NCBI RefSeq assembly: GCF_030376605.1 | Contig: NZ_JARRAE010000002.1 | Span: 248,001 to 312,000, forward strand | Length of the DNA stretch: 64,000 nucleotides | Source of the DNA: Pseudochrobactrum sp. sp1633 | GTDB lineage: Bacteria; Pseudomonadota; Alphaproteobacteria; Rhizobiales; Rhizobiaceae | Direction: 5' to 3' | In this document: in pieces, positions 26,891 to 45,058 of the stretch | Numbering within the stretch: the first letter of the stretch is position 1 | Layout: each line of letters begins with the position of its first letter | Program-made: the position numbers and the translations under genes | The notes under the pieces: generated by a model | What the model was told of the DNA's origin: nothing | The model's input: only the letters and a program-made list of their open reading frames with translations | Database searches by the model: none

Positions 26891-27649
26891 TTATTCTTCA
26901 GTGAGCGACATGCTTTCAATGGAGAATTCCATGCGATCTGCCGCAAAGCGTGTTGCTGAATATTCCACCGGCACGCCATTGGTATCGACATTGACCGACT
27001 GTGCCGTGAGTACAATTGCGCCCGGTGTGAGCTTCAGGTGTAACAGATCCTGTCCGTTGGCATGCTGAGCGGAAATCAGTGTGGATTTGCGGAAATAATC
27101 CTCAACGCCGGATTGTTTCAACGCCTGTGTAACCGAGCCGCTGGCTTTGTAAAATTCATCAAATTGCGGAAAGCGCTGTTGGTCAAACCAGCTGTCAGAC
27201 ATGGAAACCGGCTGGCCATCGGCAATAGACAGGGTTTCAAAATAATGCACTTGCGCATTCTCATCACTGAGTTGCAAAGCATGGGCGACCTCGGCTGAGG
27301 GTTTTTCAATCCTGTGTGAGAGGATGATCCGCTCCTGTTGTGTGATCTGCTCTGCCAGACTGGTGGACATGCGCGTGCGCTTGCTGATGGGATAGGTCAG
27401 GCGTTTGGCATTGGCGATAAAAGTTCCGCGCCCTTGCTCTGCCCGTAAAACGCCTTCCTGTGTCAGTGCCGCAATCGCACTGCGCACCGTATGGCGGTTG
27501 ACGCCAAAGCGGGCAGCCAGTGTCATTTCCGGCGGCAGCTTCTCGCCGCGCTTGAAATGCCCGTGTTTAATTTCCCCGCGAATTTCATCAGCGATCTGCC
27601 GCCACACAGCCACACCGCTGTTTCGGGCGATTTTTGTTGTCTCTGCCAT
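26891..27649 (-). CDS. phnF: PhnF-type GntR regulator of phosphonate use
   Basis: HutC/UTRA-type GntR regulator of 252 residues. The N-terminal winged helix (about 12-78) contains LPPEMTLAARFGVNRHTVRSAIAALTQEGVLRAEQGRGTFI, and the C-terminal UTRA ligand domain covers about 95-245. It is divergent from phnGHIJKL, with candidate operators between them (27703-27741). Assigned PhnF by this position and length. The effector is not identifiable; known PhnF proteins repress phn genes. Confidence 0.9.
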   Translation of the reverse strand: MAETTKIARNSGVAVWRQIADEIRGEIKHGHFKRGEKLPPEMTLAARFGVNRHTVRSAIAALTQEGVLRAEQGRGTFIANAKRLTYPISKRTRMSTSLAEQITQQERIILSHRIEKPSAEVAHALQLSDENAQVHYFETLSIADGQPVSMSDSWFDQQRFPQFDEFYKASGSVTQALKQSGVEDYFRKSTLISAQHANGQDLLHLKLTPGAIVLTAQSVNVDTNGVPVEYSATRFAADRMEFSIESMSLTEE

Positions 27650-27673
27650 TTAATTTGCCGCAGCCTCGCTGAT

Positions 27674-27689
27674 TGTCATGCGCTTGTCA
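27674..27689 (+). promoter_or_regulatory. Pho box upstream of phnG
   Basis: Two TGTCA repeats at 27674-27678 and 27685-27689 have an 11-nt period, as in PhoB sites (consensus CTGTCAT-N4-CTGTCAT); flanks read ATTGTCATGCG and CTTGTCACTAA. It is oriented towards phnG and suggests induction of the C-P lyase genes by phosphate starvation. Confidence 0.68.
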
Positions 27690-27702
27690 CTAAGAGCGTT
27701 TA

Positions 27703-27741
27703 AGACAATAATTAATGTCTAGTTGTATAGATAAATAGACA
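27703..27741. promoter_or_regulatory. Candidate PhnF operators between phnF and phnG
   Basis: The near-palindrome AGACAATAATTAATGTCT (27703-27720) is followed by a second TAGACA at 27736-27741, so TGTCTA (27716-27721) also forms an inverted repeat with it. Repeated TGTCTA/TAGACA half sites resemble those of PhnF-type HutC regulators. They surround a plausible -10 (TATAGA, 27726-27731), where binding would block phnG transcription. PhnF as the binder is inferred. Confidence 0.6.
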
Positions 27742-27760
27742 ATTTAGAGCGGTGTGTCAA

Positions 27761-28237
27761 ATGAAGAATGAAACCGAAAAATCACAAGACGAGCGGCGCA
27801 AGGTTGCTGCTTTGCTGGCAAAGGCAGAATTGAAGGAGCTGGCTTTCTTCTGGAGTAATCAATCAGATCAGCCACAGGTCGATGTGCTGCGCGGCCCTGA
27901 AACCGGACTGGTGATGGTGCGCGGCCGTATCGGTGGCGGCGGAGCACCGTTCAATCTGGGCGAAACGACTGTAACCCGTGCGACTGTGCGTGTATCGTCC
28001 GGCACTTCCTCGGAAGGGCTGGTCGGTCACTCCTATGCGCTCGGTCGCGATCATGAAAAAGCACGTCTGGCAGCGATTGCCGATGCTTTGTGGCAAGCAC
28101 CGCAGAGCCGTGAGACCGTCGAGCGCGATCTGTTGCAGAAAATTGCGCAACGTCTTGATGCACGTAGCACCCAGCGTCGCCGTGAAGCGGCGGCAACGAA
28201 AGTGGACTTCTTCACCATGGTTCGGGGAGACGACTAA
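27761..28237 (+). CDS. phnG: Phosphonate C-P lyase core subunit PhnG
   Basis: Subunit of the C-P lyase core complex (PhnGHIJ), 158 residues. Recognisable blocks are LLAKAELKELAFFW, VLRGPETGLVMVRGRIGGGGAPFNLGE and RATVRVSSG, with GHSYALGRDHEKARLAAIADAL further on. I start it at ATG 27761 (AGAGCGG upstream) rather than the in-frame GTG at 27752. With PhnH and PhnI it helps transfer the phosphonate to the C1 of ATP-derived ribose. Its stop codon overlaps the phnH start (TAATG). Confidence 0.93.
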   Translation: MKNETEKSQDERRKVAALLAKAELKELAFFWSNQSDQPQVDVLRGPETGLVMVRGRIGGGGAPFNLGETTVTRATVRVSSGTSSEGLVGHSYALGRDHEKARLAAIADALWQAPQSRETVERDLLQKIAQRLDARSTQRRREAAATKVDFFTMVRGDD

Positions 28238-44194: not shown

Positions 44195-45058
44195 TTATTC
44201 ACCGCCACCCAGCGAGTGCACATAGATGGCCAACTGTTTCACTGTTGTGTCGCCAAGACGTGGTTCCCATGCAGGCATGACGCCGTGTTTAGGATTTTTG
44301 ACCTGCTTGGCGATCTCAGCTTCACCTGAACCGTAGAACCAGATCGCATCTGTGAGATCAGGTGCGCCGAATTCCTTGTTGCCCTTGGCATTTTCGCCAT
44401 GACAGGCAGCACAGTTTTCTGCGAAGACCTGCTTTCCTGCCGGAATGAGGCTGGCATCATGCGGTGTTGATGTCAGGCTGGTGACATAGGCTGCCACGTC
44501 ACGGATCTGCTGTGGTTCAAGTATATCACCATATGCAGGCATTTCCGAGATACGTGTATCGTCATCATCTTTTGCGCGCACACCATGACGGATGGTTTGC
44601 AGGATTTCATCAATAGATCCGCCCCACAGCCAGTCATCATCATTCAGGTTCGGATAGCCGGGAGCGCCTTGAGCACCGGAGCCGTGACACTGAACGCAGT
44701 TCACGCGAAACGCCGCCGCACCGCCTGCAATCGCAAACTGGTTGAGCTGCGGATCAGCCATAATATCCTGAACGGATTTTTCTTTAATGGCTGCCAGAGT
44801 TTCCTGACGCTCACCTTGAATTTTGGTGTTTTCTTTCCAGAAATCCCCGCGGCTCGACCATTCCAGAACACCGGATGTGGCGCCGTTGATCAGCGGCCAT
44901 GCCGGATAGGCAATCGTATAGGCGATAGCCCAGACAATGCTGGCATAATAGGCATAGAGCCACCAGCGTGGCATCGGATTATCAAGCTCTTTGATGCCGT
45001 CCCATTCATGGCCGGTTGTTTCAACGCCTGTTACGTCGTCAATTTGCTTATCAGTCAT
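44195..45058 (-). CDS. ccoP: cbb3 cytochrome oxidase diheme subunit CcoP (FixP)
   Basis: Membrane-anchored diheme cytochrome c of 287 residues. One helix near 36-57 (WLYAYYASIVWAIAYTIAYPAWP) is followed by two c-type heme domains, CVQCH near 120 and CAACH near 215, with axial Met candidates in MPAYGD and VMPAW. It passes electrons from the bc1 complex to CcoO. I start it at ATG 45058 (MTDKQIDDVTG), overlapping ccoQ by eight bases; longer readings would add unrelated residues. Confidence 0.95.
   Translation of the reverse strand: MTDKQIDDVTGVETTGHEWDGIKELDNPMPRWWLYAYYASIVWAIAYTIAYPAWPLINGATSGVLEWSSRGDFWKENTKIQGERQETLAAIKEKSVQDIMADPQLNQFAIAGGAAAFRVNCVQCHGSGAQGAPGYPNLNDDDWLWGGSIDEILQTIRHGVRAKDDDDTRISEMPAYGDILEPQQIRDVAAYVTSLTSTPHDASLIPAGKQVFAENCAACHGENAKGNKEFGAPDLTDAIWFYGSGEAEIAKQVKNPKHGVMPAWEPRLGDTTVKQLAIYVHSLGGGE

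Follow-up and report, generated by a model that had tools for sequence, protein, structure and literature searches.

It is well established that phosphate controls C-P lyase operons (PMC10574752). In E. coli, the phn operon carries a Pho box and C-P lyase is under the control of PhoB (PMC10574752). Induction under phosphate stress has been described for the phn operons of Sinorhizobium meliloti (PMC8829014) and likewise for the Phn system of Agrobacterium tumefaciens (PMC12501420). PhnF of Mycobacterium smegmatis, a GntR-family repressor, is encoded opposite phnDCE and binds two sequences in the shared promoter region; phnDCE is induced by phosphate limitation and encodes a phosphate transporter that was reported not to carry phosphonate (PMC7866108). 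For HutC sites, Suvorova (2015) described a GTMTAKAC-type core with extra half-sites 7–12 nt from the centre, on one or both sides, whose average score is about half that of the true half-sites (PMC4494728). E. coli NanR occupies (GGTATA)3 as three dimers that bind side by side and cooperatively (PMC8012715), and Atu1419, a tetrameric GntR protein of another subfamily, acts over distant sites (PMC7797058). C-P lyase releases phosphorus from methylphosphonate and man-made phosphonates, and its production is usually ascribed to phosphate starvation.

The window, which is the whole stretch of 64,000 nucleotides that was analysed, includes a 111-nt gap (27650–27760) between the divergent genes phnF, on the minus strand, and phnG, on the plus strand. 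The regulator gene (26891–27649, minus strand) encodes a GntR/HutC-type protein of 252 aa. Its naming as PhnF in the sequence-only reading is borne out by TIGR02325 (309.5 bits, cut-off 156.8), by the Pfam domains GntR (73.7 bits) and UTRA (89.0 bits) and by the predicted fold. phnG (27761–28237, plus strand), the first gene of the C-P lyase operon, was assigned from TIGR03293 (167.3 bits) and the open reading frame list. Its start is ambiguous, as the list gives a GTG at 27752 whereas the ATG lies at 27761; the GTG would place phnG only 9 nt past the operator described below. Downstream of phnG, a model scan identified PhnH (TIGR03292), a phn-associated hexapeptide transferase (TIGR03308), PhnD, PhnM and PhnN. 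Other members of the list were named by eye as PhnI, PhnJ, PhnK, PhnL, PhnC and PhnE; PhnI, the one among these that was scanned, matched no NCBIfam model of its own. The C-P lyase operon beside phnF is apparently complete. The genome also encodes PhoB (342.8 bits, cut-off 296.2).

The gap contains a Pho box, TTGTCATGCGCTTGTCAC, at 27673–27690 on the plus strand, pointing to phnG. The direct repeat of two TGTCA elements at an 11-nt pitch that the earlier reading had pointed out was confirmed here. TGTCA-N6-TGTCA occurs once per strand in the 64 kb, the plus strand copy being the one in the gap; among 20000 Markov resamples of the gap, 2 contained it. With weight matrices that were trained on other genera only, for this motif and for the operator alike, the Pho box scored 23.1 bits, compared to 16.0 bits for the runner-up in the window (at 44470) and 18.9 bits for the top of 2000 resamples, none of which reached its score. 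A scan of the window found no second operator or strong Pho box inside the operon, for instance before phnC. Elsewhere in the genome there are three exact Pho boxes, of which one alone precedes an obvious phosphate gene, and they support the reading of the gap weakly. Two of these other boxes (L162 and L160, at C53 and C3 of the genome) lie before a gene for a Na/Pi cotransporter, which starts about 300 nt downstream of its box, and a gene for an OmpR-type response regulator.

On the phnG side of the Pho box, at 27715–27742, lies a predicted PhnF operator that reads ATGTCTAG TTGTATAGATAA ATAGACAA and forms a nested dyad of four half-sites. It scored 43.3 bits, while the best site elsewhere in the window scored -6.0 and the top of 2000 resamples 8.7, so that 0/2000 reached the score of the operator. 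Exact matches to TGTCTA and TAGACA start at 27716 and 27736, respectively, and such a pair no more than 30 nt apart was found in 3 of 20000 Markov resamples of the gap. The sequence-only reading had proposed three TGTCTA/TAGACA half-sites in overlapping dyads. The dyad is real, and there are four half-sites in a single nested arrangement; the proposed third one is present as TTGTATA (27723–27729) and is not an exact TGTCTA, and the fourth is TAGATAA (27728–27734). Compared to TTGTCTA/TAGACAA, the half-sites ATGTCTA, TTGTATA, TAGATAA and TAGACAA match at 6, 6, 6 and 7 of 7 positions. All four share one common centre, and neighbours of the same direction are 8 bp apart. The two inner half-sites make up a 12-bp HutC-type unit, TTGTATAGATAA, at 27723–27734, which matches TTGTCTAGACAA at 10 of 12 positions and whose central part GTATAGAT agrees with GTMTAKAC (a GT-N4-AC core) at 7 of 8 positions, the last C being a T. 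Outer half-sites are present on both sides, and the outer right one (7/7) is stronger than the inner right one.

In order to examine the conservation of both motifs, three sets of loci were collected: 30 loci from 61 related genomes, the best 80 of 582 confirmed places in named genomes, and 30 loci from 289 genomes of the class, drawn from a larger group. phnF is divergent from phnG at 135 of these 140 loci, a total that includes the best 80 of 582 places. The remaining five comprise one locus without phnG (L025), two without phnF (L124, L135) and two with co-directional genes (L029, L030). Both motifs were found to be kept in other divergent phnF–phnG gaps, contrary to the lack of conservation that would have refuted the sequence-only reading. 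Scored on the 14 fixed positions of TTGTCTA-N6-TAGACAA, at least 12 of 14 were present in 99 of 101 gaps outside the genus (from the 61 genomes and the best 80 of 582 places), compared to 2 of 2020 shuffled sequences. The two other loci (L028, L106; operator 11/14) were excluded before alignment, and removal of redundancy at 80% identity left 68 blocks of the 99. Among these 68 non-redundant blocks, again from the 61 related genomes and the best 80 of 582 places, a Pho box matching at least 11 of 14 positions was found in 65 (1.7% of shuffles), and its distance from the operator was 32–35 nt in 54 of the 65; in the window it is 32 nt. Named loci among the best 80 of 582 span Brucella, Phyllobacterium, Agrobacterium, Rhizobium, Mesorhizobium, Ensifer and Sinorhizobium. 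On pSymB of Sinorhizobium meliloti the layout is as in the window, both in strain 1021, where it is unannotated, and in strain ABS7, whose gap is identical to that of 1021 and lies beside annotated phnG and phnF genes. Within the own genus, the Pho box is identical in all six gaps (the window and five others), and the number of variable columns (0 of 18 in the Pho box, 1 of 28 in the operator and 10 of 65 in the remainder) agrees, if modestly, with conserved sites.

The same 68 blocks, from the 61 related genomes and the best 80 of 582 places, support the nested form of the operator. The blocks were anchored on the consensus, which inflates conservation at positions 0–6 and 13–19, and positions -8 to -1, positions 7–12 and the Pho box are unanchored. 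A half-site matrix peaked at offsets -8 (+), 0 (+), 5 (-) and 13 (-), with means of 3.2, 12.6, 0.8 and 11.1 bits; no other offset exceeded -6.7. Offsets 0 and 13 served to train the matrix and are therefore high by construction; offset -8 is independent of the training, and offset 5 shares two bases with offset 0. The inner right half-site is thus the weakest in the relatives. A plain 20-bp palindrome, TTGTCTA-N6-TAGACAA, was considered as the whole operator and rejected as insufficient, since positions 8 and 11 are both A (65/68 and 66/68), a pattern not expected of a symmetric spacer, and since the scores peak at four offsets. An unanchored count of half-site pairs matching at least 6 of 7 positions in 102 gaps gave the same register: the five most common geometries are those of the nested dyad (+- at 13, 94; ++ at 8, 39; +- at 21, 37; +- at 5, 14; -- at 8, 14), with an expectation of at most 0.3 for each, while off-register geometries occurred in at most 5 loci each. 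The operator is the sole exact match to TTGTMTA-N6-TAGACAA in the genome. The wider PhnF regulon that a genome scan for the dyad had been expected to define did not emerge: with up to two mismatches there are 23 places, compared to 49 for the reversed control, and a site no commoner than its reversed control gives no support for a wider regulon.

The sequence-only reading had placed a plausible -10 element within the dyads, and this placement was rejected. When the 60 of the 68 blocks with a Pho box of at least 12/14 (the best 80 of 582 places contributing here as well) were aligned on that box, T was found at +11 from its end in 57 of 60 and A at +12 in 58 of 60. This TA is the sole sharp feature in the following 26 nt and is present in the window too. 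The conserved TA 11–12 nt after the Pho box thus points to a predicted -10 for phnG, TAAGAC, at 27701–27706 on the plus strand, upstream of the operator. Since the operator begins at 27715, the predicted transcription start falls at its left edge, and PhnF would cover this start and not the site of PhoB. The operator is separated by 18 nt from the phnG ATG and by 65 nt from the start of phnF.

Taken together, the gap is probably a two-input promoter of the phn operon, at which activation by PhoB is combined with repression by PhnF; this is the best reading of the sequence evidence. The original observation was sound and its interpretation mostly right, and it is partly supported after correction of the place of the -10 and of the number and order of the half-sites. 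Under phosphate starvation, phosphorylated PhoB would bind at 27673–27690, where it would replace a -35 element, and recruit RNA polymerase to the -10 at 27701–27706, as the conserved spacing suggests. PhnF, made from the divergent gene, would bind at 27715–27742, past the -10 and over the expected start and the first transcribed bases, and could there block polymerase without displacing PhoB. A small phosphonate or phosphate ligand would then release PhnF by binding to its UTRA domain. Expression of the operon would be expected when a shortage of phosphate coincides with the presence of the ligand, so that the cell might tell phosphate shortage from phosphonate, as the sequence-only reading proposed, and the fact that the PhoB and PhnF sites do not overlap fits the need of separate inputs. 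If such a local second gate exists and is shared by many relatives, starvation would be insufficient for C-P lyase production and a ligand would be needed as well. The layout is shared with S. meliloti 1021, which offers a concrete test there and a handle on the effector of PhnF.

The identity of this ligand is where the main alternative lies. PhnF may sense phosphate status, through phosphate or a phosphate ester, and not phosphonate, in which case both layers would report one thing and the gate would only sharpen the starvation response. We consider this possible, if on balance doubtful. The precedent of M. smegmatis, where PhnF controls phnDCE and with it a transporter of phosphate but, as reported, not of phosphonate (PMC7866108), speaks for it, and is countered by the position of PhnF here beside an apparently complete C-P lyase operon, by an identity of only about 20% to the structure of M. 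smegmatis PhnF, and by the finding that loci picked by PhnF similarity alone have a divergent phnG in 107 of 110 cases, the best 80 of 582 places included (28 of 30 for loci picked by PhnG). The predicted fold of PhnF (mean pLDDT 87.6) matches those of NagR/YvoA, DasR and M. smegmatis PhnF. In NagR, the phosphate of the effector is held by Thr90, Ser165, Ile166, Tyr167, Arg133 and Arg135 (PMC4333415). In a pairwise alignment read by eye, Ser165 and Tyr167 correspond to PhnF Ser172 and Thr174, each kept in 136 of 137 PhnF rows, a set that includes near-duplicates and the protein of the window more than once. The retention of these phosphate-binding positions at a helix end fits this alternative as well as the two-input reading, yet they cannot separate phosphate from phosphonate. 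Thr90 corresponds to Ser95 (Ser or Thr in 120/137 rows), and Arg133 and Arg135 correspond to Thr139 and Ser141, the latter position being Arg in 33/137 rows, all by the same alignment by eye; Arg187 of PhnF is found in 137/137. As both phosphate-binding arginines of NagR are replaced, the pocket differs from that of NagR, and an anionic ligand of PhnF, held in a pocket of another kind, is plausible.

Another alternative is that the operator mainly serves autoregulation of phnF, control of phnG being secondary. In FadR and HutC divergons single sites usually serve both genes (PMC4494728), but the operator lies much closer to the phnG ATG than to the start of phnF, and its spacing is tied to a Pho box and a -10 that are directed to phnG. 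Autoregulation as the main role is thus unlikely.

If PhnF and its site were functionally idle, PhoB would do all the control. To our knowledge, little effect has been ascribed to PhnF of E. coli. A further sample, made of 26 new loci (398 genomes examined, from a larger group) and 40 more, served to ask whether the motif goes with PhnF, and speaks for the two-input reading with the limits given below; 64 of the 66 were usable, L251 and L252 being dropped for lack of a PhnG match, and other places of the same family were left out. Of 44 gaps with divergent phnF, 30 have a half-site pair in register, compared to 0 of 20 comparison regions upstream of phnG (Fisher 7e-8, kinship not controlled). 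These 20 regions reach 350 nt upstream of phnG, with phnF co-directional in 18 and not found in 2. Clade is a confounder of this comparison, and operons with a co-directional phnF may begin with a gene other than phnG, so that an operator could lie more than 350 nt upstream; these two weaknesses slightly lowered our confidence in the two-input reading. At the set threshold, 14 of the 44 divergent loci have no half-site pair, and in several of them (e.g. L199, L217, L241, L244, L247) half-sites just below or beside the set were seen by eye. The 18 co-directional loci without a register pair within 350 nt of a phnG that may not be the first gene could be taken to favour an idle PhnF, but 99 of 101 gaps (the best 80 of 582 places included) retain the operator, down to the register of its half-sites, which makes this very improbable. 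That the dyads arose by chance or reflect the structure of a promoter that is A+T-rich around the expected transcription start, and are not a protein site, can be dismissed in view of the conservation, the register and the 2000 resamples that all fall short of the operator score.

Other lineages show further forms of the operator. Among 27 gaps of the class-level set, 14 have the compact geometry, +- at 5, which is the commonest, and 6 have -- at 8. The nested form is present in plasmid records of Paracoccus denitrificans and P. yeei, a Haematobacter plasmid record has a form like that of Hyphomicrobiales, and Variovorax has a single compact unit, TTGTCTATACAA. In Tritonibacter and Rhodobacteraceae bacterium SC52 the right half-site departs from the register, by 1 and 3 bp, the right side of the operator is decayed in Loktanella, and some class-level loci (e.g. 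L193) are off register by one. In Caballeronia no clear site was found at the threshold used. The forms run from the compact unit of Variovorax, through a compact core in many class-level loci, some of which have an additional box, to the nested form of the relatives of the window and Paracoccus. It is conceivable that alphaproteobacterial PhnF reads half-sites on a fixed 8-bp pitch, with adjacent dimers sharing 4-bp half-sites, and that lineages tune repression by gain or loss of half-sites in register, the activator site being placed separately. We offer this as a tentative and rather doubtful proposal from comparison of sequences; the off-register sites outside the order of the window count against a strict register there, and we lowered its probability accordingly.

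Several side observations were made in these lineages. A TTGTCGA box follows the operator near the phnG start in gaps outside the order of the window (L120, L125, L127, L129, L132, L138, L241, L244, L247 and, among named records, L149 of P. denitrificans); it is off the 8-bp register, with the geometry -+ at 16 in 5 of 27 loci. In 18 of 27 loci (22 with ties) of the class-level set (L111–L140), 48–60 nt separate the best Pho-like box from the compact operator that follows it, compared to 32–35 nt in the relatives of the window, a loose pattern given without a chance level. By eye, TTTAC follows the Pho-like box in about 10 of these loci, as if a -35 element lay between. In family f184 (L219, L221–L223, L227, L228, L235, L239, L242), TTGTCTA-N6-TAGACAA was seen by eye about 17 nt past the Pho-like box, which is 15–18 nt closer than in the family of the window and beside the presumed -10. 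Two PhnF paralogues (L156, L159) are divergent from genes annotated as alkaline phosphatase family and not from phnG. The latter, from Phyllobacterium, adjoins a phosphatase-like gene, with TGGTCTAGACCA and a Pho-like box.

In the titles and abstract openings listed, neither this promoter nor a nested operator for PhnF is described, though a description may be in print in subscription papers or regulon databases. A study of 2006 is said to have predicted PhoB promoters for S. meliloti. Compared to E. coli, where the Pho box precedes phnC and phnF lies within phnCDEFGHIJKLMNOP (PMC10574752, PMC7866108), the phnF of the window is divergent from phnG. The divergon resembles that of M. smegmatis in that a PhnF gene lies opposite a phosphate-responsive operon (PMC7866108); the target is a phosphate transporter there and C-P lyase here. 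The two also differ in the half-site tetramers, which are ATGT, TTGT, ATAA and ACAA in the nested dyad of the window. The operator of M. smegmatis PhnF is reportedly TGGTATAGACCA, with TGG/CCA half-sites that find no match here.

NagR/YvoA and DasR share the fold and family of PhnF, and the operator in the NagR crystal, GTGGTCTAGACCAC, has a core of the type seen in the window (PMC4333415). NagR binds one palindrome and an amino-sugar phosphate, whereas the operator of the window is a nested dyad. Two arginines of NagR lie on the GG of its half-site; one of them, Arg38, corresponds to Met42 of PhnF, and the operator of the window has a T at the first of these two G. A general pairing of arginine at this position with GG in the operator was considered and found no support, as the Phyllobacterium paralogue has TGGTCTAGACCA yet a proline there. 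NanR is a GntR-type protein like PhnF, but it binds repeats and not a nested dyad, and its cooperativity needs an N-terminal extension of 32 residues (PMC8012715), which PhnF lacks, as its first helix begins at residue 15 in the predicted fold. The HutC sites of Suvorova (2015) resemble the arrangement in part, as outer half-sites lie on both sides here; unlike in those sites, where the extra boxes are weaker (PMC4494728), the outer right half-site is the best of the four. Dual control of this sort is known in kind, and the nested geometry of the operator is the less familiar part, which bears on the use by GntR repressors of half-sites outside the classic palindrome.
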